Source of the DNA: a virus
Virus record (IMG/VR): IMGVR_UViG_3300025138_000500
Location: 1 to 20,366 of that record
Reading direction: 5' to 3' (one strand)
Length of the DNA stretch: 20,366 nt
Shown here piece after piece: positions 1,958 to 20,366 of this stretch; positions within the stretch are counted from its first letter, which is position 1, and each line of letters starts with the position of its first letter. The notes beneath the pieces were generated by a model, which made no database searches, was not told the origin of the DNA, and worked only from the letters and a program-made list of their open reading frames with translations. The translations under genes were made by a program, and so were the position numbers.

Positions 1958-2668
1958 TTATTTAGGAGCTATGTAAAGGTTTGGTAATAAATTTGACTGT
2001 TCTGCTGTCCTTCTAACTTGTCTATTAAATGAATTTTGAACTTCAGTATCAATTAAAGATATATCTGTTTCATTAGATACAGATTTATCACCTGATATTT
2101 CCATTTTAAAAGAGCCAATACTATATAAAGTATTTAATAATTTATTTAATGCTTGTTGTGATTGTTCTTTAGAAGGTGATAAATAAAATGATCCTGTTCC
2201 TTTTTGTATACCTAATTGGTTAGTTTGATCGTTAAATTTTAATCCTAACCCTATGCATCCTTGTAAATTTTTAGTTGCTTTTGGGGCAGCATATATTAAT
2301 ATAGAACCTCTAGTATAACCACTTCCAGTTATTCTATTATCTTGGTAGCCCCCATCATCATTTCCTATTAACCAAAAACATCTACCATATTTACCACTAC
2401 TATAAGATATAACTCTATAATTACCAGTTGGAACACAACTAATACCATTTTGATTATTATTCCAAGGTAATTCTACAGTTGCTAAAGAATATAAAATATT
2501 TTCATTTCTATCTAAAATATCCATTATACCTAATGTTTGAGTACTATCATCCATTATTCTACGTAATCTTATTCTTAACAATTCTTCACTTGCAGGTAAT
2601 GGAGGAGGTGCTGGGGGTAAATTATTACCTACTGTGGCTTGAGCAAATGTTGTTATATTTATTCCCAT
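1958..2668 (-). CDS. DUF5675-like protein in the baseplate operon
   Basis: A 236-residue protein. Residues about 40-165 follow the DUF5675 pattern: a strand-rich start, VELPWNNNQNGISCVPTGNY (compare LE.PW..N...SCIP.G.Y), then a R-x-x-I-L-I segment (RGSILIYAAP) and a GCIGLG box (NLQGCIGLG). In most members I recall, the I-x-I segment is followed by His (I.IH..N); here it is Tyr, so if that His is functional this copy has lost it. The H..GC arrangement of the family recalls L,D-transpeptidase active sites, which is resemblance only. The N-terminus has a proline run (PPAPPPLP). The C-terminal ~70 residues are polar and unassigned. The gene starts 4 nt after the 804-aa gene's stop and ends 5 nt before the next start, so it is translationally linked to baseplate genes. 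Likely role: baseplate component or cell-wall-facing domain. Confidence 0.6.
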   Translation of the reverse strand: MGINITTFAQATVGNNLPPAPPPLPASEELLRIRLRRIMDDSTQTLGIMDILDRNENILYSLATVELPWNNNQNGISCVPTGNYRVISYSSGKYGRCFWLIGNDDGGYQDNRITGSGYTRGSILIYAAPKATKNLQGCIGLGLKFNDQTNQLGIQKGTGSFYLSPSKEQSQQALNKLLNTLYSIGSFKMEISGDKSVSNETDISLIDTEVQNSFNRQVRRTAEQSNLLPNLYIAPK

Positions 2669-8379: not shown

Positions 8380-8394
8380 TTTTATTATAAATAT
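8380..8394 (-). promoter_or_regulatory. Candidate late promoter motif before the 134-aa gene
   Basis: Minus-strand ATATTTATAATAAAA, identical over 15 nt to the copy before the tape measure gene, sits 18 nt upstream of the ATG at 8361 and overlaps the last base of the tape measure stop codon. The repetition before several gene starts is seen directly; promoter function is inferred. Confidence 0.5.
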
Positions 8395-10796
8395 TAACCT
8401 ATTCCAGAAGATGCAATTGTTAAGCTTTTTCCTACTTTATTACCATCCATATAAACATCACCTCCTTCAGTTACTACAGCTATTAATTCATCTAATTTTT
8501 TTAATAGTTGGGATTCGTTATTATTATCTTCTCCCCCACCTGCACCAAATACACCAGCTAATTCAATTAATGGAGCAGATACTAAACCTAAAGCACTTAA
8601 AGCACCTAATATTGGCAATGCTCCTATTCCAGCTAATGCTACAGCCATAAGTCCTCCAGCAATGCCAAATAATGCAGGTCCTAATAATAACATTGGTCCA
8701 ATATTTTCCATTGAAACTGCTTCCATTATTAATACAAATCCTTCTGCTGTTTTTGTTATTATAGTACCAATACCATCAAATACAGCAGTTATTACAGTAC
8801 CAAATGCTTTAATACCAGGTGCGGCTAATCCTAAAGCTGCTCCTAAAGCTATCATTGCAACTGATATTAACCCTACACCTATGGCTATATATGCTAGTTG
8901 TGGGCCTTTTAGAGCTTTACCAAGAGCTGCTAAACCCTTTCCAAGTCCTGTAAGGAAACCTTGCATTATTTTCCCTGCTCCTGGTTTTAGATTTTTAGAA
9001 GATTTTGTTAATTTATCTGTCACATCACCAGTTTTATCTCCTCCTGTTAATCCTTTTAAAGAACCCATTATACCTTGTCCCTGTTTTAAATTTTTAAAAT
9101 ATTGTAAAGCACCTGCGGCAACTTTAAACATATTCATAGCCATACTTTTTAAAGCAGGGGCTGATTTTTTAACTAAAGATATAGCAATTGCGGCCATAAT
9201 TCCTTTTAATACCAAACCATTAGATACAAATTGTAGTATATAAGTTAAAGGGCCAGCTAAAGCTTCTGTTATTTTATTTATTGATTTTTCAATTTGTTGT
9301 TGTAAACCTAATCTTTTTGCTTCTTCTAAAGATATACCTGCTGCTTTTGCTGCTTGTTCTGTTGATAAGTCACCTTGTATTTTTTGTGCATATATCATTT
9401 TAGACATTTCTTCTCTAGACATACCCATAGCTTTAGCTGTAGCTTCTTGTTGTATTCTATTACCAGAAGCAAATGCTTTTAATATACCTTCATTTTTTCC
9501 TATTTCTTTAGATAGACCTTCTAAATCATTTGCTAAAGCTAATTGTCTAGCTTTATCTAAATTTAATTGTTTACCTGTAAGCAATTCAGCTTCCATTTCT
9601 GCTTGAATAGAAGATTCAAATTGTAATATAGAACCTGCTATATCATCTACTTGTTGTAAAGAAAGTCCTAATTTTCTAGCTTCCATAGCAGCATCCTGTA
9701 TGTTGTCTGCTGAACTGCCCATCGATAATGAAACTGCTGCAGAAACACTTCCTACATCTTCCATTACACCTTTAAAATTTATACCAACTTTTTCTGTTCC
9801 AACAAAATCTCTAAATGATGATTCCATATTAGCAGAAACTTCTGCTAATGGTTTACCTGATAATTTAGCAAATTTAGCTAATTGGGCTGCTTCATGAGCA
9901 CCTAATCCCATATTTTCAGTTAATTGTGCTACTTCATTAATTGTTTCAGGAGAAAATACAACGGCTGCATTAATCCCTAATTCTTTAGATAGCATACTTG
10001 CTGATTTTATATACTCACCAGTAGTAATAAGACCCGTATTTAAAGTATCTGTTAGATCTATATTTTGACCAGTTATTGATCTAAATACTTTTTGTTGTTT
10101 TTCAATTTCTCCTGCTGATTTTAGGATTTTTGCAAATACTATTGTTGGATCAGTCATGGCATCAAGAGCAGAGCCTAATACTTGACCAACTCCATAAGCT
10201 GCTACTTCAAGTTTAGCAAAAGCACCCCCAGTCCTAGCTGCTTTTTGCTGTATTTTACCCATTATTTCATCAGCATTAATAAGATCTCCAATTATGGGGA
10301 TTTTGGAAATCCCCTTTACTATTGCCCCAATAGCACCCATCTTTTTTTCAAGGGCTTCTGCTTCTGATTGTTGTTGTCTTAATATTGCTAAATGTGCTGC
10401 TTCAGCCTCATCTAATTCTGCTAATTGTCTATTTAATGTATCTTTTAATCCATTTTGTTCAGCTGATAGTGAATTAATGGTTCTTTCAATAATTTCCCTT
10501 TTTATTGCTCTATCTTCTATCTGTTTTGCAATATCAGAAGATTTTAATTGACCTGATATTAACTTTTGTTGATTTTTTATAGTATCATCTAATCCTTTAG
10601 CTAATCCTTTTATACCTCTTACAATATCGCCAGCAAATATTTCAGAAACTTGTTTACTTTCATCTTTTACATCTTGAAGAGCATTTTTAACTGCATTAGA
10701 TAAATTATTAGCAATACTAATTATAGTATTCTCAATAACAGATAAATCTTTGTTAAGTTCTTTTGCTATTTTTTTATTTTTATCTAAATCAGCCAT
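8394..10796 (-). CDS. Tail tape measure protein
   Basis: An 800-residue protein that would fill the tail tube, set its length and leave during DNA ejection (family knowledge). Residues 1-170 are helical and coiled-coil-like (many K/E/Q/L, for example LDEAEAAHLAILRQQQSEAE). Residues about 180-510 are Ala/Glu/Lys-rich helices. Hydrophobic segments lie near 525-545, 633-660 and 700-751 (LLLGPALFGIAGGLMAVALA and following). The C-terminus ends in a short GGDVYMDGNKVGKSL element that I associate with tape measures of large phages. If the usual ~0.15 nm per residue holds, the tail would be about 120 nm. It follows the chaperone frameshift pair, the canonical order. A hairpin and a copy of the 15-nt motif lie just upstream; the leader before ATG is CCCTTTA, with no Shine-Dalgarno. 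Confidence 0.85.
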   Translation of the reverse strand: MADLDKNKKIAKELNKDLSVIENTIISIANNLSNAVKNALQDVKDESKQVSEIFAGDIVRGIKGLAKGLDDTIKNQQKLISGQLKSSDIAKQIEDRAIKREIIERTINSLSAEQNGLKDTLNRQLAELDEAEAAHLAILRQQQSEAEALEKKMGAIGAIVKGISKIPIIGDLINADEIMGKIQQKAARTGGAFAKLEVAAYGVGQVLGSALDAMTDPTIVFAKILKSAGEIEKQQKVFRSITGQNIDLTDTLNTGLITTGEYIKSASMLSKELGINAAVVFSPETINEVAQLTENMGLGAHEAAQLAKFAKLSGKPLAEVSANMESSFRDFVGTEKVGINFKGVMEDVGSVSAAVSLSMGSSADNIQDAAMEARKLGLSLQQVDDIAGSILQFESSIQAEMEAELLTGKQLNLDKARQLALANDLEGLSKEIGKNEGILKAFASGNRIQQEATAKAMGMSREEMSKMIYAQKIQGDLSTEQAAKAAGISLEEAKRLGLQQQIEKSINKITEALAGPLTYILQFVSNGLVLKGIMAAIAISLVKKSAPALKSMAMNMFKVAAGALQYFKNLKQGQGIMGSLKGLTGGDKTGDVTDKLTKSSKNLKPGAGKIMQGFLTGLGKGLAALGKALKGPQLAYIAIGVGLISVAMIALGAALGLAAPGIKAFGTVITAVFDGIGTIITKTAEGFVLIMEAVSMENIGPMLLLGPALFGIAGGLMAVALAGIGALPILGALSALGLVSAPLIELAGVFGAGGGEDNNNESQLLKKLDELIAVVTEGGDVYMDGNKVGKSLTIASSGIG

Positions 10797-10819: not shown

Positions 10820-10842
10820 AAAAGCATCTATTTTTTAGATGC
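10820..10842 (-). terminator. Weak terminator-like hairpin at the end of the chaperone extension
   Basis: Minus strand: GCATCTA, loop AAAAA, TAGATGC, then TTTT. The 7-bp stem has three G-C pairs and spans the TAG stop (10830-10828) of the frameshift extension. Short stem and short T-tract make a weak intrinsic terminator or a transcript-end stabiliser. Confidence 0.4.
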
Positions 10843-11121
10843 CTTTGTTGAATAGGTAGGTTTTGGTTTTACATTTTTTAGAAATTCAGGTGATGTTACT
10901 TTACCATCTGTAGTTACAGATTTAGTATTACTATTATTTCCTTGAGCTTTTTTAACTCTAGCATTTTCTTCTACATAAAAATCATTTATTTTAGAAAAAG
11001 TAAAACTACGTAGCCATATAGGCATATTATAAATAGTATGCCAGTCATAACCACCCTTACCATGAAATACTATATCATGGATTTGAGAAAATAAACTTAT
11101 TCTATAAGTCTGAGTCAGGCC
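10828..11121 (-). CDS. Frameshift extension (GT-type second part) of the gp26-family tail assembly protein
   Basis: This frame is open from just after a TAG at 11139-11137 to a TAG at 10830-10828. It lies +1 relative to the upstream chaperone frame and overlaps its last codons. The first in-frame ATG is only at 11025 (65 codons), with no ribosome-binding sequence, yet the 32 codons before it look coding: FSQIHDIVFHGKGGYDWHTI runs smoothly into YNMPIWLRSFTFSKINDFY, a pattern typical of the T part of tail chaperones (short helix, then P-x-W-L-R). The rest is a Lys/Ser/Thr-rich tail ending TKASKK. Reached by a +1 or -2 shift at the T7 run (11122-11128), it would add 97 residues to residue 243 of the chaperone, giving a fusion of about 340 residues. 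Its place just before the tape measure matches lambda G/GT. The alternative is an independent 65-aa gene. Confidence 0.6.
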   Translation of the reverse strand, partial: GLTQTYRISLFSQIHDIVFHGKGGYDWHTIYNMPIWLRSFTFSKINDFYVEENARVKKAQGNNSNTKSVTTDGKVTSPEFLKNVKPKPTYSTKASKK

Positions 11122-11851
11122 AAAAAAAGTTAAGCCCTATCGGGACTGTAATGTCCTCGTCGCCACCTTCTAATGTATCAATTGATACTGTTAAATCAAC
11201 ATCAGGTTGAAAATCCTTAATGTAATTTCTAAACGCTCTTGAATCTTGTGCTAAAAAATAATTATCCACAAAATTTCTAATGTCTTTAGAATCTTCAGAA
11301 CCATCTACAGATACTATCATATGTTTAAGACGTGTTGATAATTCCGGTGTATTATTTTTATTAATTTTCTTTAATCCTTTTAATTCATTATCAATTTTAG
11401 TTTCATCTTTGTGTGTTAAAAGTTTAAACGTAAGCATTGTTTCAGATTTAGGACAAGTAAATGGAAATTCATTTTTACCTTGCTTAAATTTAGATTTATC
11501 AAAATCTTTATTTTCTAAAGATGATAGATCTATTGTAACTTTTTCATTTTTATATGTAAACTCATATTCACTACCGTAACCTAATATTCTAGCAGCAATT
11601 AATAATGCATTTTTGTCACCAACTATTAAATCTTTATAATCCACTTTAGATACTATTAATGCTTCTAATAATTTATCTATTACTGTGCCTTTTTGAATAT
11701 ATGATTGGTTAGTAAGTATATCTTCTTCTTTAGCAGTCATGTACTTCATTTCTACTTTTCCAGATGATAATGGATTGTCTTTTGGGTAAACTATCCCATT
11801 TGAAGGTAGTTCTACTACTTCTGATGGGTATTTTTGTGTTTCTTCACTCAT
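11102..11851 (-). CDS. gp26-family tail/baseplate assembly protein in the tail-chaperone (G-like) position
   Basis: A 249-residue protein. The N-terminus carries the signature I associate with the T4 gp26 family: VVELPSNGIVYPKDNPLSSG, then KVEMKYMTAKEEDILTNQSY and a K-G-T-V-I-D-K-L-L helix, followed by a G-D-K-N-A-L-L-I-A-A-R-I-L-G-Y-G-S-E-Y segment; residues about 125-150 (FPFTCPKSETMLTFKLLTHK) resemble the metal-site-like CP region of the family with only one Cys left. T4 gp26 is annotated as a baseplate hub or assembly protein. Here the gene lies between tail tube and tape measure, exactly where lambda-type G chaperones lie, and its end overlaps an open +1 frame at a T7 run. I infer a tape-measure chaperone. 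The gene starts after a strong terminator, so it should have its own start signal or rely on read-through; leader AAATAAAAGAT, no Shine-Dalgarno. Confidence 0.7.
   Translation of the reverse strand: MSEETQKYPSEVVELPSNGIVYPKDNPLSSGKVEMKYMTAKEEDILTNQSYIQKGTVIDKLLEALIVSKVDYKDLIVGDKNALLIAARILGYGSEYEFTYKNEKVTIDLSSLENKDFDKSKFKQGKNEFPFTCPKSETMLTFKLLTHKDETKIDNELKGLKKINKNNTPELSTRLKHMIVSVDGSEDSKDIRNFVDNYFLAQDSRAFRNYIKDFQPDVDLTVSIDTLEGGDEDITVPIGLNFFWPDSDL
11122..11128 (-). promoter_or_regulatory. Candidate slippery site for programmed +1 or -2 frameshift
   Basis: Seven T in a row, read in the zero frame as AAC TTT TTT TGG (codons 241-244 of the chaperone gene). A shift of +1 or -2 here enters the downstream frame with GGC CTG. 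The zero-frame stop (11104-11102) and the last stop in the +1 frame (11139-11137) bracket the possible shift to about 12 codons, and this run is the only obvious slippery sequence in that bracket. Confidence 0.55.
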
Positions 11852-11950: not shown

Positions 11951-12439
11951 TTAGAAATTTAATACACAGTAATCCATTCCTAGAGTTAATGAAACATCTT
12001 GAGCTTCCGCTTCAGTATCCCAATTAAATCCTTTAAATGTTGCATCTTTTATAAATGAACCTTTTAATATCCATTCTGATACTACATCACCTACAGGTCC
12101 TAATACATTAATAGTTACATCTTTTTTATAGAAATCAGAGTAACCATCTCTACCCGTTACAGATTCATGGTGTAATCTTACCCACTCCATTACTGCTTGA
12201 GCTCCTGATGGTGTAATTGGATCGTATAATGTCATAGACACATCCGCCCATTTAGCTTTACCTTTTACTTTTCTATAAGTATTGATATGATTAAGTACTA
12301 TTTCACCTTGCTCTACCTTAATTTCACCTACTTCTTTGATCATATATGATGGTATACCATCTACATACATTATAAATCTATTGGCAACTTTTGGTTCAAA
12401 AGCTGTGAAAAACATTTCGTTTGGATTTACTACTGCCAT
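11951..12439 (-). CDS. gp19: Tail tube protein (T4 gp19-like)
   Basis: A 162-residue protein that should form the inner tail tube by stacking hexameric rings. Length matches T4 gp19 (163). Family traits seen: F-E-P-K-V-A-N-R-F-I-M-Y-V-D-G-I-P-S-Y near residues 14-32, then a K-V-E-Q-G-E-I-V-L strand; the conserved turn K-G-K-A-K-W-A-D-V-S-M-T-L-Y-D-P-I-T-P-S near 58-77; and the ending ILKGSFIKDATFKGFNWDTE with DVSLTLGMDYCVLNF, which parallels the gp19 C-terminus (GAF-I...F..L.W....V.I.L...YD..). It directly follows the sheath gene, the usual order, and is followed by a strong terminator. A copy of the 15-nt motif is 15 nt before the ATG; the leader is an A/T run without Shine-Dalgarno. Confidence 0.92.
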   Translation of the reverse strand: MAVVNPNEMFFTAFEPKVANRFIMYVDGIPSYMIKEVGEIKVEQGEIVLNHINTYRKVKGKAKWADVSMTLYDPITPSGAQAVMEWVRLHHESVTGRDGYSDFYKKDVTINVLGPVGDVVSEWILKGSFIKDATFKGFNWDTEAEAQDVSLTLGMDYCVLNF

Positions 12440-12484: not shown

Positions 12485-15400
12485 TTATGATGGAAATTCA
12501 GCTCCAGTTGGTAAAATGTTGAAATCTAAGTAAATAAATTCAGCTGTTTTAGTTGGTTGGATATAAATTGCACCCACCATTTGGTTTCTATCAACTACAT
12601 CTGGCCCATTATTAGCAGAATCCATTTGTACTTTAAAGGCATATAATCCTTGTCTTTGTTGTACTGATTCTAAGTATGGATTAACTTGTGCTAAGAAATT
12701 ATTTCTTGTTGCTGCCGTGTTTTGTTCAAATACTAAATTATCAGCAATTTGTACAATAAATGATTTTAAGGCTATTAATAATCTTCTAACATTAATTCTA
12801 TCTAAAGCTGATGCTGTTGATTGTAAAGTTTTCTGTCCAAATACTACAACTCCTCTTCCTGGGAACGTTGCTATTGGATTTACTTTACCTGTATATAAAC
12901 TATCTCTATTAGATTGTGTTAATTTTCTTTGTGCCTGTACTACCGTATTTAAACCACCTCTATTAATTCCAGCGGGTGCGAACCAAGCTTCACTTGTTCT
13001 GTCATTAAACGCGTACACACCAGGAATAACCGATGATGGTACGGTCCATACTAACTGTCTTGAATCTGGGTCATTTAATTGAATCCAAGGCCAATAAGTT
13101 GCTGCATATGAATTATCAATTGAAGCAGCTTGTGTTTTTGCTGTTTCTACTGTTCCTCCTGAATAATTAACTACATCTATAACTGCTATAGCATCTCCTC
13201 TTCCTTGTGTATTTGATAATAATGTATTCATTGGAGTTGCCCAAGTTGAAGATGCGTAATATAAACCAGGTGCAGAAATAATATTATATTGATAATCATC
13301 TTTATTTGCTAACAAATTAAATGCATCTGTGTATGTTTGTGCTTCTGTTGGAGTCATACCTTGTGAATTAGCATCTGTTATTGCATCATAATATTTAGCT
13401 TGTGTATATACTGGGAATCCTGTTTGTGAAAATAATGCTCCATTAGCTCCACCAAATGATCCACTTGCATTATCTGGTAAGAAATCAGCATACGCTGGAT
13501 TTGCTGTTCCATTATTATCAAAATAATTTGGAGTTTTTGCATTTACTGATTTTACTCTTACGTATCTTGAAGATACTGGGTAGTTTCCAACTGTACTAAT
13601 ATATGGATCTGTTGTTCCAGCTCCATTAAATACTTTTGTCATGTTACCTATTATTCTTTCTATGTAATTAGATGATTTTGGGTCTAATGATACATTAGGG
13701 TATATTTCTAATACTCTTTTAGCTGTTTGTGTGTCATTACCTTGTCTAATAATTACACTAAATGTTCCACTTGCTACATCTCTTCCTTGTATTTCCCATC
13801 TAATATTACTAGCAGTTCCACCAGTTAATGTTCCATTTGCTCCTGTAGCATCACCAGCATTCATTATAGTTCCATCAGATATTGTTTCTAATTCAAAAGC
13901 TACATCATCTACAAAATCTGCATCTTGTAAATCTATATCTATTGCTGATGTTGGACTACCAATTACTCCGGTTGCTATTTCAATGTCATTTGAATTAGTA
14001 AATGTAGTAGCTCCTTGTGTAACTAACACAATTGAAGTTGGTTCAATTACTAAGTTATTTAAATTATCTTGAGTATTACTTGCATTTACTGCTAGTGCAG
14101 CTGCTACTGCTCCTGATGCATTTTCTAAATCACCTGATACTAAAGTAAATGATACAGTACTACCAATTCCTGTAATATTTCCGGAATCTATTGTAATTAT
14201 ATTATCTGCTTGAAATCCTTCTACAAATGTTGCATCTGTTGGAGTTATACTAATTACTTCTGTTAATAAATTACCTTGAGCCACTGAGAATGCTCTAGCA
14301 CCTCCTGTTACACCACTACCAAATGGTGTACCTGTTAAAGTATTTAAATCTGCTGCAGCAATTGTTATTACTGTAGAATCTGTATACCCTGAAGTTCCTG
14401 TAGCATCAGTAATAGTAAGTGTATCTACGTCACCACCATTTTGAGTTAAAGTAAATGTACCACCTGCTCCACCACCAGCAATACCACCTCCAGAACCAAT
14501 TAAATCTGCTAATGTTAATCCTGTTGCAGATGTACCTGTTGCATTTGCGAAAGCTGAACCACCCGCTGCTATTGTTGGAGTTGAAGTACTTAATTTTCCT
14601 GCTGATGAGTCAAATATACAATTAAATGTAGCACCTGATCCTTGAGAAGTTCCGCCACTTACTGAGTATGTGTTTGAACCTGCTCCGGATGTACCTTCTA
14701 CTAAAGTTACATTACCAGGAGCTGCTGTTCCTACTGTATTTACTACAGTTGGAGTTTTAGCTGCTACTTTAAGCATTCCTGATCCTAAAGATCCTGCTGG
14801 GATAGTTATTATATCACCTGCTACATATCCTGTTCCGGCATTAATTACTTCTATTTCTGTAATTGTAGCTCTTTGTGTAGTTGTTAATTGTGCTCCAGTT
14901 GTAACTTTAACTGTTGCTCCTGTTCCTGTTCCACCAGTTACTGAAATTGCTGTACTTGATCCAAATACTGTACTAACAAGACAATCTACTGGGTTAGTAC
15001 CTGCAGCAACTAATGCTGCAAAACTACCTGCAGTTCCTATTGTATTAGCAGTTCCATTATATATTTGTCCTATTGCAGTTCCTCTTACTACGTTAAATGT
15101 AGCATCAGAAGCTCCTCCATCTTTTGTAGAAGCAACTGCTGAAAAAGTTCCAGCTGTACCTCCTCTACCTGTTATTCCTGCTGATCCTGTAAAATTATAA
15201 GGGCTAGGATTTAATGCCGTACTAGTTACATTATTTTCAATTACTGAAGAAGATGCAGGAGTCCATGATCCTGAAGCTACTCTATTTACTATTAATGATG
15301 TACCACCATTTTGAAAGTAATTATATGCTGAAATAGATGTAAAGTATGTGAATTCGTCTGAACCACTCGCAAATGTACTACCAAAATTTGCTAGATATTC

Positions 15401-15550
15401 TGAGTAGCTTGTTACTAACTTAGGAATGTTTACACTACCTAAAACAGTTGGTCCAACTACACAAGCTCCTGCTTGTATTGGTTGTGAAGTTACTTGAGAT
15501 TGATCATTTTCTCTTGCTAGTACCCCTGGGGAAATTAATGTTTCTGCCAT
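12485..15550 (-). CDS. gp18: Tail sheath protein (T4 gp18-like) with a large internal insertion
   Basis: A 1021-residue contractile sheath protein, against 659 for T4 gp18. Residues 1-108 are the classic sheath N-terminus: ISPGVLARENDQSQV, then GACVVGPTVLGSVNIPKLV, SYSEYLANFGS and AYNYFQNGGTSLIVNRV. Recognisable sheath sequence resumes near residue 580 with IRWEIQGRDVASGTFSVIIR, QGNDTQTAKRVLEIYPNVSL and DPKSSNYIERIIGN, and the C-terminal domain (about 815-1015) is strong: YWPWIQLNDPDSRQLVWTVP, PAGINRGGL, the INVRRLLIALKSFI helix and VGAIYIQPTKTAEFIYLDFN. Between about 110 and 575 lies an insertion rich in Gly, Thr, Ser and Ala with repeated GxGY.xGD.I.I elements (INAGTGYVAGDIITIPAGSL), probably beta-rich domains on the outer surface. 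No frameshift or stop occurs in it. A copy of the 15-nt motif lies 10 nt before the ATG. Confidence 0.93.
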   Translation of the reverse strand: MAETLISPGVLARENDQSQVTSQPIQAGACVVGPTVLGSVNIPKLVTSYSEYLANFGSTFASGSDEFTYFTSISAYNYFQNGGTSLIVNRVASGSWTPASSSVIENNVTSTALNPSPYNFTGSAGITGRGGTAGTFSAVASTKDGGASDATFNVVRGTAIGQIYNGTANTIGTAGSFAALVAAGTNPVDCLVSTVFGSSTAISVTGGTGTGATVKVTTGAQLTTTQRATITEIEVINAGTGYVAGDIITIPAGSLGSGMLKVAAKTPTVVNTVGTAAPGNVTLVEGTSGAGSNTYSVSGGTSQGSGATFNCIFDSSAGKLSTSTPTIAAGGSAFANATGTSATGLTLADLIGSGGGIAGGGAGGTFTLTQNGGDVDTLTITDATGTSGYTDSTVITIAAADLNTLTGTPFGSGVTGGARAFSVAQGNLLTEVISITPTDATFVEGFQADNIITIDSGNITGIGSTVSFTLVSGDLENASGAVAAALAVNASNTQDNLNNLVIEPTSIVLVTQGATTFTNSNDIEIATGVIGSPTSAIDIDLQDADFVDDVAFELETISDGTIMNAGDATGANGTLTGGTASNIRWEIQGRDVASGTFSVIIRQGNDTQTAKRVLEIYPNVSLDPKSSNYIERIIGNMTKVFNGAGTTDPYISTVGNYPVSSRYVRVKSVNAKTPNYFDNNGTANPAYADFLPDNASGSFGGANGALFSQTGFPVYTQAKYYDAITDANSQGMTPTEAQTYTDAFNLLANKDDYQYNIISAPGLYYASSTWATPMNTLLSNTQGRGDAIAVIDVVNYSGGTVETAKTQAASIDNSYAATYWPWIQLNDPDSRQLVWTVPSSVIPGVYAFNDRTSEAWFAPAGINRGGLNTVVQAQRKLTQSNRDSLYTGKVNPIATFPGRGVVVFGQKTLQSTASALDRINVRRLLIALKSFIVQIADNLVFEQNTAATRNNFLAQVNPYLESVQQRQGLYAFKVQMDSANNGPDVVDRNQMVGAIYIQPTKTAEFIYLDFNILPTGAEFPS

Positions 15551-16645: not shown

Positions 16646-17203
16646 TTAAAACTGTTTTTTAGGTAGATAATACTGACTATGGTTAAAATATTGATTTGTG
16701 GGTGGGTTAACATCATGTATATCAAATGTAACATTATCAAATCCCATAGAAAGTTCTTCATTACTACCCCACCATGTTGCTCTTCCACCTGCTTTCATAA
16801 ATGAAGGTATTAATCCCCAAATATCTGTATTATTTAAATCACCCCAAGTATCGTAAAATAAACCATCATAAGTACTTAAAGTATCTTTTATATCATACCA
16901 ACTACCTTCTAATATAGTTACATTAGGTTTATCTGCAGCCCATGCTTGAGCTTTTGTAATTACTTGTGGGTGGTTTTCTATAATAGTATGTGTATTAATA
17001 GTATGTTGTTGAATATAACCAGCTGATATTCCCATTCCAAACCCTATTTCAAGAATATCTCCACCCCCCTCACAAGCATAAGCTGCTGAAGCTGACATTA
17101 TAGTATCTTCCCAATCCATCATTACTTCTAAAGTTTGATTTGATGAGTTTACATAAGTAATTTTATCACTTTCAAATGTTAGATTTGATGATAGATATGT
17201 CAT
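16646..17203 (-). CDS. SAM-dependent N-methyltransferase of the guanidinoacetate/arginine (GAMT/RMT2) type
   Basis: A 185-residue class I methyltransferase. It parallels GAMT along most of its length: V-M-M-D-W-E-D-T-I-M at 27-36 (VMERWETPYM in human GAMT, from memory); SAM-binding motif I GGGDILEIGFGMGIS at 46-60 (GGRVLEVGFGMAIA); the acidic post-I strand THTIIENHPQV at 71-81; ILEGSWYDI at 97-105; and the catalytic-side loop YDGLFYDTWGDL at 112-123 (FDGILYDTYPL), keeping the Asp of the YDT box. The C-terminal part is shorter than the ~236-residue animal enzyme, with an unusual RATWWGSNEEL strand. GAMT-type enzymes methylate the guanidino group of guanidinoacetate or the delta-nitrogen of protein arginine; the substrate here is unknown. 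The gene lies 10 nt after the fibre gene and abuts the adhesin-like gene (TAAATG), so modification of a fibre protein or a host surface molecule is possible. High confidence in fold, low in substrate. Confidence 0.8.
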   Translation of the reverse strand: MTYLSSNLTFESDKITYVNSSNQTLEVMMDWEDTIMSASAAYACEGGGDILEIGFGMGISAGYIQQHTINTHTIIENHPQVITKAQAWAADKPNVTILEGSWYDIKDTLSTYDGLFYDTWGDLNNTDIWGLIPSFMKAGGRATWWGSNEELSMGFDNVTFDIHDVNPPTNQYFNHSQYYLPKKQF

Positions 17204-17213
17204 AATTTAATTA

Positions 17214-20200
17214 TTAACTAATTGTTATAAATGTTTTATCAGGGTCAAAATAAATACAATCATCATTTACAGCATAACCAGCAATTCTAGCCCAACCAGA
17301 TGATGGAACTGTGTTTGTTAAACTACCTGCAGTATTTGATAAATAAAGTGGTTGACCAATATTAAATCCATGACCTTCAAGCCCAGCAAATCCTTGTAGC
17401 ATCATACCATCAGCTTGTGAACCACCTCCCATTGCCATAGCTAATAAATGACTAGCATGATCTTCATCTTGATTAGCATCTGCTAAATCCCAAGTTCCAC
17501 TTGTTGTAAGATAATATACTTTATATTGTGTTACAATTTGATTTGCAATATCTCTTTCAGAAATACCTGAAAATTCTTGATCAGCTAATCCTGCTTTAAA
17601 CGATATAACTGCTCTTTCATTAAATGATAATTGACTAAGAGATGGTGATGAAGTTTCAACTACTGTAATATGTTGTTCAGTTGCTAAATTTGGTGATGAA
17701 CCATTTAAGGTCATTATACCATTATTGGTTGTTCCTGTTATTGTAGCTGTTCCTGAAGTACCTGATGAACCACTACCTCCATTTGAACCTGATGTACCTG
17801 ATGAACCATTAGATCCGTTTGATCCTGATGTACCTGAAGAACCGTTTGATCCACTTGTTCCTGATGAACCATTTTCTCCTGGTTCACCTGGTTCACCTTG
17901 TACACCACTTGTACCTGAAGAACCGTTTGATCCACTTGTTCCTGATGAACCATTACCTCCATTAGAACCTGAAGTTCCTGATGAACCTGATGTTCCTGAA
18001 GAACCATTAGATCCGTTTGAACCTGATGTACCTGAAGAACCTGAAGTACCTGATGAACCATTTGATCCGTTTGAACCTGAAGTACCTGATGAACCTGAAG
18101 TTCCTGAAGAACCATTAGATCCGTTTGAACCTGAAGTTCCTGATGAACCACTTGTTCCTGATGAACCATTAGATCCGTTTGAACCTGAAGTTCCTGAAGA
18201 ACCATTAGATCCGTTTGAACCTGAAGTTCCTGATGAACCACTTGTTCCTGATGAACCGTTTGATCCGTTTGAACCTGAAGTTCCTGAAGAACCATTAGAT
18301 CCGTTTGAACCTGATGTACCTGATGAACCGTTTGAACCTGATGTACCTGAAGAACCATTAGATCCGTTTGAACCTGAAGTACCTGATGAGCCACTTGTTC
18401 CTGATGAACCGTTTGATCCGTTTGAACCTGATGTACCTGAAGAACCATTAGATCCGTTTGAACCTGAAGTACCTGATGAGCCACTTGTTCCTGATGAACC
18501 GTTTGATCCGTTTGAACCTGATGTACCTGATGAACCGTTTGATCCGTTTGAACCTGATGTACCTGATGAACCTGAATTACCTGTTACAGCAAAGTTTATT
18601 ACTACATCATCATTAGTAGCAAATGCTGAATATGTAAGTGCTGATACCCCAAATTGAATATAATTGGTTTGATTAGTTAATGATGTTACTTTTGCAATTA
18701 ATATTTCAGTATCACTATTTTCTCTTTGTATAGTAACAGTTCCAAATCCTGTAGTTGAGTTGCCTGAATCATCCCATGAATTTAACCACGTTAATTGGGA
18801 TACACCATTTTGGTCTGTTTTATTTATGTTTAATTGATTAGTACCATTATAAGAGAAAAATCCATTTGAATTTAAACCTGAATTATTAAATCTATATGGA
18901 ACTCCACCTCTATCACCTGATGATCCTGATGAACCTGACGTTCCTGATGAACCATTAGATCCGTTTGAACCTGATGTACCTGATGAACCATTTGACCCAT
19001 TTGAACCTGAAGTTCCTGATGATCCACTTGTTCCTGATGAACCATTTGATCCATTTGATCCTGATGTACCTGAAGAACCTGAAGTTCCTGATGAACCATT
19101 TGATCCATTTGATCCTGATGTACCTGAAGAACCATTTGATCCTGATGTACCTGAAGAACCATTAGATCCATTAGAACCTGATGTACCTGAAGAACCCGAA
19201 GTTCCTGAAGAACCATTTGATCCGTTTGAACCTGAAGTTCCTGATGAACCTGAAGTTCCGGATGAACCTGACGTTCCTGATGAACCATTAGATCCGTTTG
19301 ATCCTGATGTACCTGAAGAACCTGAAGTTCCTGAAGAACCATTTGATCCATTAGAACCCGAAGTTCCTGATGAACCATTAGAACCATTTGATCCTGATGT
19401 ACCTGATGAACCTGATGTTCCTGATGAACCGTTTGATCCATTTGAACCTGAAGTTCCACTGGAACCTGCAGTACCTGAAGTACCAGATGCTCCACTTACT
19501 CCTGAAGTTCCTGATGAACCACTTGTTCCTGATGAACCACTTGTTCCTGATGAACCATTTGATCCATTTGAACCTGAAGTTCCTGATGAACCTGATGTTC
19601 CTGATGAACCGTTAGATCCGTTTGAACCTGATGTTCCTGATGAGCCTGAAGTTCCTGATGAACCGTTTGATCCATTTGAACCTGACGTACCTGATGAACC
19701 ACTTGTTCCTGATGAACCACTTGTTCCTGATGAACCATTTGATCCATTTGATCCTGATGTACCTGATGAACCTGATGTTCCTGAAGAACCGTTTGATCCA
19801 TTTGAACCTGAAGTTCCTGAAGAACCTGATGTACCTGAAGAACCATTAGATCCGTTTGATCCTGATGTACCTGATGAACCTGATGTTCCACTTGAACCTG
19901 AATCTCCAAATGCTGCAAATGATACTACAACTTTATCATTAGTTGAAAATGCACTTTCAGATAATTCTGTAACTCCAAATTGAATATAATTAGTTTGATT
20001 AGTTAATGATGTTACTTTAGCAACTAATATTGATGCTCCACTATCTCTTTCTTGTAAAGTAACTACACCAAACCCATTTGTACTGTCACCTGTGTCATCC
20101 CATGAATTTAACCACGTTAATTGGGATACGCCATTCCCATCTGTTTTATTAATTGATAATGTATTACTACCATTATAATATAAAAATCCGTTTGAATTTA

Positions 20201-20366
20201 TACCCGAATTGTTAAATGTGTATGGAACTCCACCTCTATCACCTGATGATCCTGATGAACCTGACGTTCCTGATGAGCCGTTTGATCCATTAGAACCTGA
20301 CGTACCTGATGAACCACTTGTTCCTGATGAACCTGATGTTCCTGAAGAACCATTAGATCCGTTTGA
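17214..20366 (-). CDS. Collagen-like fibre protein with repeated modules and C-terminal knob; N-terminus beyond the right edge
   Basis: One minus-strand frame is open from the right edge (first codon TCA at 20366) to a TAA near 17214: 1050 visible residues. The ATG at 17714 (MTLNGSS) is internal, not the start, because the collagen frame runs straight into it (GTTNNGIMTLNG). Architecture from N to C: a short G-X-Y block; a ~108-residue module (GVPYTFNNSGINSNGF ... SQLTWLNSWDD ... TNQTNYIQFGV); ~109 G-X-Y triplets; a second module copy; ~92 G-X-Y triplets; then a ~180-residue C-terminal domain with ISERDIANQI, DEDHASHLLAMAMGGGSQAD, GQPLYLSNTAGSLTNT, RIAGYAV and IYFDPDKTF, a knob pattern known from phage fibre proteins. 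Triplets are mostly GSS, GTS and GSN, with few prolines (GEPGEP near the C-terminal end). Such proteins form trimeric rods on virions. Likely role: tail fibre or virion appendage. No intact start is visible. Confidence 0.85.
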   Translation of the reverse strand, partial: SNGSNGSSGTSGSSGTSGSSGTSGSNGSNGSSGTSGSSGSSGDRGGVPYTFNNSGINSNGFLYYNGSNTLSINKTDGNGVSQLTWLNSWDDTGDSTNGFGVVTLQERDSGASILVAKVTSLTNQTNYIQFGVTELSESAFSTNDKVVVSFAAFGDSGSSGTSGSSGTSGSNGSNGSSGTSGSSGTSGSNGSNGSSGTSGSSGTSGSNGSNGSSGTSGSSGTSGSSGTSGSNGSNGSSGTSGSSGTSGSNGSNGSSGTSGSSGTSGSNGSNGSSGTSGSSGTSGSSGTSGVSGASGTSGTAGSSGTSGSNGSNGSSGTSGSSGTSGSNGSNGSSGTSGSNGSNGSSGTSGSSGTSGSNGSNGSSGTSGSSGTSGSSGTSGSNGSNGSSGTSGSSGTSGSNGSNGSSGTSGSNGSSGTSGSNGSNGSSGTSGSSGTSGSNGSNGSSGTSGSSGTSGSNGSNGSSGTSGSNGSNGSSGTSGSSGSSGDRGGVPYRFNNSGLNSNGFFSYNGTNQLNINKTDQNGVSQLTWLNSWDDSGNSTTGFGTVTIQRENSDTEILIAKVTSLTNQTNYIQFGVSALTYSAFATNDDVVINFAVTGNSGSSGTSGSNGSNGSSGTSGSNGSNGSSGTSGSSGTSGSNGSNGSSGTSGSNGSNGSSGTSGSSGTSGSNGSNGSSGTSGSNGSSGTSGSNGSNGSSGTSGSNGSNGSSGTSGSSGTSGSNGSNGSSGTSGSNGSNGSSGTSGSSGTSGSNGSNGSSGTSGSSGTSGSNGSNGSSGTSGSSGTSGSNGSNGSSGTSGSSGTSGSNGGNGSSGTSGSNGSSGTSGVQGEPGEPGENGSSGTSGSNGSSGTSGSNGSNGSSGTSGSNGGSGSSGTSGTATITGTTNNGIMTLNGSSPNLATEQHITVVETSSPSLSQLSFNERAVISFKAGLADQEFSGISERDIANQIVTQYKVYYLTTSGTWDLADANQDEDHASHLLAMAMGGGSQADGMMLQGFAGLEGHGFNIGQPLYLSNTAGSLTNTVPSSGWARIAGYAVNDDCIYFDPDKTFITIS
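17745..18577 (-). repeat. Collagen-like G-X-Y coding repeat, C-terminal block
   Basis: About 92 Gly-X-Y triplets, mainly GSS, GTS and GSN, built from 9-nt units such as GGTTCATCA and GGTACATCA. The block ends with a distinct GEPGEPGEN stretch. Low complexity; the antisense strand is also open here. Confidence 0.9.
18577..18902 (-). repeat. Fibre module, copy 2 (C-terminal copy)
   Basis: About 108 residues: PYRFNNSGLNSNGFFSYNGT ... INKTDQNGVSQLTWLNSWDD ... ILIAKVTSLTNQTNYIQFGV ... INFAVTGN. It matches the copy at 19903-20228 at a constant offset of 1326 bp (442 codons), with no indels; the last ~25 residues diverge most. Confidence 0.85.
18915..19897 (-). repeat. Collagen-like G-X-Y coding repeat, middle block
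   Basis: About 109 Gly-X-Y triplets between the two module copies, nearly all from S, T and N, with a small variant island (GVSGASGTSGTAG) near 19480-19500. Confidence 0.9.
19903..20228 (-). repeat. Fibre module, copy 1 (N-terminal visible copy)
   Basis: About 108 residues: PYTFNNSGINSNGFLYYNGS ... INKTDGNGVSQLTWLNSWDD ... ILVAKVTSLTNQTNYIQFGV ... SFAAFGD. Same length and register as copy 2; W-L-N-S-W-D-D and T-N-Q-T-N-Y-I-Q-F-G-V are identical. Confidence 0.85.
20240..20366 (-). repeat. Collagen-like G-X-Y coding repeat, cut by the right edge
   Basis: About 14 Gly-X-Y triplets (SNGSNGSSGTSG and on) leading into GDRGGVPY of module copy 1; continues beyond the window. Confidence 0.85.

Follow-up and report, generated by a model that had tools for sequence, protein, structure and literature searches.

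The window, meaning the whole stretch of 20,366 nucleotides that was analysed, is a fragment of a contractile-tailed phage. On its minus strand the genes for the sheath and the tail tube are followed by a gp26-like gene, an ORF in the +1 frame and the tape measure gene. The phage is T4-like, with hosts probably of the Flavobacteria type; the host link is drawn from two relatives, Flavobacterium phage immuto and one contig of a Flavobacteriales MAG. The features of the locus are the following:

12485-15550, minus strand: sheath gene, upstream of the tube gene in the minus-strand gene order.
11951..12439, minus strand: tail tube gene (phrog_4542 tail tube, E 8.5e-21), lying next upstream, as is usual around tail chaperone genes.
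11102..11851, minus strand: gp26-like gene, short form (TAC-N / G-like, 249 aa).
11153..11161, minus strand: purine-rich, Shine-Dalgarno (SD)-like element GACGAGGAC, a candidate stimulator.
10828-11139, minus strand: ORF in the +1 frame, between the TAG at 11139-11137 and the stop at 10830-10828.
11122..11128, minus strand: slippery run TTT TTT T (AAC TTT TTT TGG in frame 0).
10828..11121, minus strand: +1-frame extension (T-like, 97 aa plus stop), beginning GLTQTYRISLFSQIHDIVFHGKGGYDWHTIYNMPIWLR; its first codon is GGC at 11121-11119.
11102..11104, minus strand: frame-0 stop TAG, six codons past the slip codon, read directly.
10831..11851, minus strand: predicted long form (TAC-NC / GT-like, 340 aa), with the +1 shift at 11123-11128.
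8394..10796, minus strand: tape measure gene (phrog_167 tail length tape measure protein, E 8.9e-06), the presumed client of the chaperone.

In frame 0, the 3′ end of the gp26-like gene reads CTT AAC TTT TTT TGG CCT GAC TCA GAC TTA TAG. If one base is skipped after TTT TTT, the product continues as NFF-GLTQTYRISLFSQIHDIVFHGKGGYDWHTIYNMPIWLR and the frame stays open to 10828. The first ATG of the +1 frame, at 11027-11025, lies 32 codons beyond the shift point. A preliminary description of this DNA had placed here a gp26-family gene of 249 codons ending at 11102, a +1 ORF from 11139 to 10828, a T7 run at 11122-11128 and an ATG at 11025, and all of these coordinates are correct. As in frameshifted tail chaperones, the gene stands between the tail tube gene upstream and the tape measure gene immediately downstream, and a conserved out-of-frame extension is joined to the conserved slippery site near its 3′ end.

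The short form alone matches phrog_150 with an E-value of 4.9e-11 (residues 8-243 on profile positions 12-232). For the fused protein of 340 aa, whose profile comparison had been suggested beforehand, the E-value is 3.8e-13 and the match reaches profile position 274 of 282. This longer match and the alignment indicate that the long form carries a gp51-type C-terminal part. PF12322 was not reached by the short form at E 0.1, and phrog_634 gave no match on its own. Both gp26 and gp51 of phage T4 belong to PF12322 / phrog_150; the C-terminal part (phrog_634) is present in gp51 only.

The structures of the short form and of the extension were predicted separately. The AlphaFold2 model of the short form has a pLDDT of 89.8 and matches gp26-family proteins in BFVD down to an E-value of 1.1e-19. 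Among solved tail chaperones, the fold search placed that of HK97 (2ob9) at rank 9 with an E-value of 3.1 and a probability of 0.15, which is not significant. The extension is predicted to be helical (pLDDT 73), and the fold search with it returned tubulin-type matches only, which are meaningless. Sequence searches detected no solved relatives for the fusion or for T4 gp51.

To follow the junction through related phages, IMG/VR was scanned with the gp26-like protein and the best 80 of at least 598 relatives were kept; codon counts and pN/pS values are based on 73 non-redundant loci. No plasmid relatives were found. With the exception of one contig that has an indel and a few that are truncated, the relatives of this first scan carry TTT[C/T]TTT in frame, followed by CCTGA. 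Wherever the contig is long enough, the +1 frame is open for about 76-118 codons after the run, and nearly all homologues have a frame-0 stop within a few codons of it. A second, partly overlapping retrieval recovered the run and the open +1 frame in 80 of 81 loci. Both are also kept in the distant Rhodothermus phage RM378 (23.6% identity) and in Microcystis phage Mel-JY01. The combination of an in-frame run and an open +1 frame is far beyond chance.

The first slip codon is TTT in 73/73 loci, with zero codon entropy; at other highly conserved Phe columns, 8-30% of the loci have TTC. About 110 highly conserved positions show synonymous codon variation among the 73 loci, the exceptions being the slip codon and the next two codons (GGC, CTG), the latter two being invariant because coding in two frames constrains them. 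The codon that would re-pair one base downstream is likewise invariant, as all 73 loci read TTTYTTT, the pattern for a P-site slip on YUU-U. The A-site codon of the homologues is a sense codon, namely TGG, TAC or TTC. In the second scan the downstream CCTGAC varies (CCAGAC, CCTCAA, CCTGAT, CCTGAA) and TTTYTTT stays constant; therefore, the run is the constrained element. The conservation of the T run that had been asked about thus holds for TTTYTTT, but not for T7 as such, since 14 of the 73 loci (19%) carry TTTCTTT. A −1 heptamer of the type X_XXY_YYZ does not describe the site, since it is the +1 frame that holds the extension, and reading in the −1 frame ends at the conserved TGA within CCTGAC.

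Taken together, the gp26-like gene and the +1 ORF that overlaps it are best read, with a probability of roughly 0.88 and on the basis of sequence comparison, as one tail assembly chaperone gene of the lambda G/GT type, whose short and long forms would arise by +1 programmed frameshifting. Most ribosomes would stop at the TAG at 11104 and release the short form of 249 aa. A fraction would shift by +1 at YUU-U while the P site holds UUU, or CUU in some relatives, the P-site UUU re-pairing with the UUU one base downstream. These ribosomes would continue in the +1 frame to give the long form of 340 aa, ending in the helical extension. Like lambda G and GT, the two forms would then cover the tape measure protein and bring in tube subunits. 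We infer the occurrence of the shift in the cell as well as its efficiency. The roles of lambda G and GT toward the tape measure and the tube (PMC5009743) suggest by analogy that binding to the tape measure protein is common to both forms here and that the tube would be recruited through the extension. The preliminary description had put forward that a frameshift fuses a gp26-family chaperone to a GT-like extension ahead of the tape measure gene, and every test proposed there that was run supported this.

A real frameshift could also serve to make structural parts of the baseplate hub instead of tail assembly chaperones. The family is annotated as 'baseplate hub', and some older work on T4 put gp26 in the hub (PMC3004832). 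However, the gene directly precedes the tape measure gene and follows those of tube and sheath, and it encodes a short/long pair with the shift near the 3′ end. Furthermore, both T4 proteins, gp26 and gp51, are counted among the hub assembly chaperones, and gp51 is indispensable although the particle does not contain it (PMC3004832). Later literature, according to a title cited in PMC12846349, treats the tail chaperone genes of T4-like phages as identified. The hub reading is therefore improbable, and a tail chaperone pair is the best reading because the gene encodes a short/long pair, lies just ahead of the tape measure gene and is homologous to the T4 hub assembly chaperones.

Slippage of RNA polymerase on the T run, by which a share of the mRNA would be one U short and would be decoded normally, is still less probable. 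The run is a homopolymeric T7 in most loci, which would suit it, but seven T's are short for slippage and the loci with TTTCTTT, which hold runs of three only, retain the same +1 ORF.

The extension could further be a separate protein with an independent start at the ATG at 11025 or at a non-ATG codon and thus no fusion at all. Here, the codons ahead of the first ATG are informative. Codons 247-275 of the fusion all precede it and have a pN/pS of 0.34, compared with 0.38 for the gp26 body, which agrees with the earlier impression that the sequence upstream of 11025 looks coding; towards its far end, the extension shows little conservation (pN/pS 0.82). Between the window and a close relative (L003), the stretch ahead of the ATG differs by six synonymous changes and one non-synonymous change. 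Purifying selection thus acts upstream of any ATG. Stops between the run and 11025, which would have spoken against a fusion, occur in none of the homologues.

The first ATG stands at codon 32 or 36 of the extension in most loci (range 32-36), and Met is found at the 11025 position in 69 of 73. An SD-like sequence precedes this first ATG in 3/73 loci, but as starts in these phages lack SD sequences, its absence is no bar to initiation. Nevertheless, the ATG lies inside a conserved domain, with 29 codons upstream under gp26-like purifying selection; in 4 of the 73 loci the Met is replaced by Phe or Leu, and two loci (L076 and L080) have no ATG within the first 45 codons of the extension. An independent start would also leave the invariant TTT at the slip codon unexplained. 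The sole exception among the 81 loci of the second retrieval, L188 (around position 2220-2600), demonstrates that a separate ORF is possible. There, the run reads TTC TTC TGG and the slippery T run is lost; the extension forms a separate ORF with its own ATG, reads MDVSNKTRNQLAFFGLTPESA and contains FFGLT, the very sequence that a +1 shift yields. In this locus, loss of the run goes with a separate means of expressing the extension. For the window and the other relatives, the comparison disfavours an independent start, which we regard as very unlikely.

A −2 shift as in phage Mu, which the preliminary description had left open beside +1, would land in the same frame and would find re-pairing permitted by T7, but it is rejected as hardly credible, since in the TTTCTTT loci a tRNA decoding CUU and slipping by −2 onto UUC pairs badly, whereas a +1 slip onto UUU pairs as in prfB (CUU-U), and L188 encodes FFGLT, the +1 product, and not FFFGLT; of that earlier proposal for a T4-like phage, the +1 part on the T-rich site stands.

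The +1 frameshift reading can be compared with the arrangement in other T4-like phages. Of the two T4 homologues, gp26 corresponds to the short form and gp51, which has the extension in frame, to the long form. In contrast to the single frameshifted gene proposed here, T4 encodes them by two separate genes on opposite strands, and the end of its gp26 lies three residues beyond the junction column.

In cyanophage S-PM2 (150471-151363), gp26 and an annotated gp51 of 57 aa are followed by a large gene that occupies the place of the tape measure. The sequence U_UUU_UUC immediately ahead of the gp26 stop is common to all 58 non-redundant cyanophage relatives and leads by −1 into gp51; in 22 of these 58, the first eight codons include neither ATG nor GTG nor TTG. 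A frameshift is therefore the simpler reading for the cyanophages. P-HM1, S-RIM8 and S-N03 have the same U_UUU_UUC site, and the two genes are annotated as joined in none of these three. The gp51 entries of cyanophages in databases start 3-19 codons too late (L096-L175, S-PM2, P-HM1, S-RIM8, S-N03). Gene order, junction column and an extension in an overlapping frame are shared between cyanophages and the window; the cyanophages differ in using −1 at U_UUU_UUC and in an SD-like element that ends 8-10 nt upstream in 38/58.

Similar −1 layouts are present in VH7D, pf16, ACP17 and OLIVR6. A +1 layout is seen in RM378, LR756508, Listeria LIS04 and Streptococcus GXN1; in all of these but RM378, the exact slip codon is less certain. 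In the alignment, +1 and −1 users have their junctions in one column (LR756508 one column earlier). A profile of the cyanophage extensions matches the C-terminus of T4 gp51 with an E-value of 3.9e-7. The +1 extension profile, after five distant +1 relatives had been added, matches the cyanophage extensions with 1.1e-4, compared with 0.062 for the best shuffled decoy; the direct profile-profile comparison of the narrow extension set with the T4/cyanophage extension is weak (hhalign probability 27%). Sequence comparison shows the extension to be homologous to that of gp51.

Outside the T4-like phages, a close counterpart in organization is gpG/gpGT of lambda, together with its counterparts in other long-tailed phages. 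These share a short protein and a frameshifted long one, a shift near the 3′ end and a gene directly upstream of the tape measure gene. However, lambda shifts by −1 on G_GGA_AAG, whereas a +1 shift on TTTYTTT is proposed here, and there is no detectable sequence similarity. With respect to the shift itself, the +1 frameshift of prfB (YUU-U) is similar, as the codon in the P site, CUU or UUU, re-pairs with UUU one base on and an SD-like sequence lies upstream; TTT replaces CTT at the slip of some prfB genes (PMC12421855). In prfB, a stop codon occupies the A site and the SD-like sequence is immediately upstream. In this phage group, by contrast, the A-site codon is a sense codon (UGG, UAC or UUC), and the SD-like element lies 24-33 nt ahead of the slip. 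For the tail chaperone gene of a myovirus, +1 has been proposed ('very likely +1') in the haloarchaeal HSTV-2 (PMC5009743). This is an archaeal virus, likened here by the type of shift and not by sequence.

The SD-like element itself is unusual in its setting. GGAGG, AGGAG or GAGGA occurs at −45 to −18 of the slip in 55/73 loci, compared with 5/73 in a control stretch. Most relatives have the form GAGGAGG, and the window has GACGAGGAC. Around the element, GAG use is 70% compared with 14% elsewhere, and the local G+C is 0.53 compared with 0.34. No SD-like sequence was found at 72 gp26 starts, 65 tape measure starts and the starts of 10 window genes. Bacteroidia rarely use SD sequences, yet retain the SD-dependent +1 shift in prfB (PMC8710568). 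The element is a candidate frameshift stimulator, a role that is only suggested because the spacing exceeds that of known SD-stimulated shifts.

Folding of the alignment revealed no conserved downstream RNA fold, and single-sequence signals were weak (mean z −0.2 to −1.1); therefore, no pseudoknot is claimed. Upstream CCN-ATN-GGN hairpins, seen by eye in some loci, were discarded, as they are absent in relatives with other codons there.

A wider scenario, which we consider possible but rather doubtful, is that a T4-superfamily lineage of Bacteroidota-type hosts swapped the −1 shift of its relatives for a sense-codon +1 shift, which would be stimulated by an internal anti-Shine-Dalgarno contact at the unusually long distance of 24-33 nt, although these phages and their likely hosts lack SD starts. 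A −1 poly-T signal in the TAC genes of T4-like phages is reportedly a finding of Vladimirov and colleagues from 2022. Frameshifted tail chaperones as a kind are already known, as are the proposed +1 in HSTV-2 and the identification of the T4-like tail chaperones. The last was announced in 2022, as far as the title of the paper tells (Vladimirov, Gautam and Davidson; Virology 566:9-15; title in PMC12846349), and the earlier proposal that gp26 relatives are tail chaperones agrees with that title. In PMC5009743, the T4-like group was presented as the exception to frameshifting in tail genes. A search of the open-access literature found the +1 version with TTTYTTT reported nowhere for this lineage, and this version of the T4-like tail chaperone frameshift appears to be new.

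For a large group of aquatic T4-like phages, the reading would correct the annotation of an essential tail gene that is widely misannotated. Currently, the long chaperone form is split in databases into a 'baseplate hub' protein and a hypothetical or missing fragment. Furthermore, one homologous chaperone family would reach the same junction in three ways, namely a +1 shift, a −1 shift and two separate genes in T4, so that the evolution of recoding direction becomes directly testable. An internal SD-like element in genomes without SD starts also offers a way into the use of the anti-SD by Bacteroidota ribosomes.

Some further observations concern the remaining genes of the window. The tail sheath (12485-15550, minus strand) is very long with 1021 aa, and conserved sheath domains are found only from residue 741; it is so read as having a large N-terminal part or insert ahead of them. 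At 17214-20366 (minus strand), a tail-fibre-like ORF of >1050 aa with collagen-like GSNGSSGTSG repeats runs off the window; along part of its length, the opposite strand has a spurious open frame. Between the fibre-region genes, a methyltransferase-like protein is encoded at 16646-17203 (minus strand; PF13649, E 1.5e-4, under the curated cut-off). In the baseplate region, 1958-2668 (minus strand) encodes a DUF5675-domain protein (E 2e-10).
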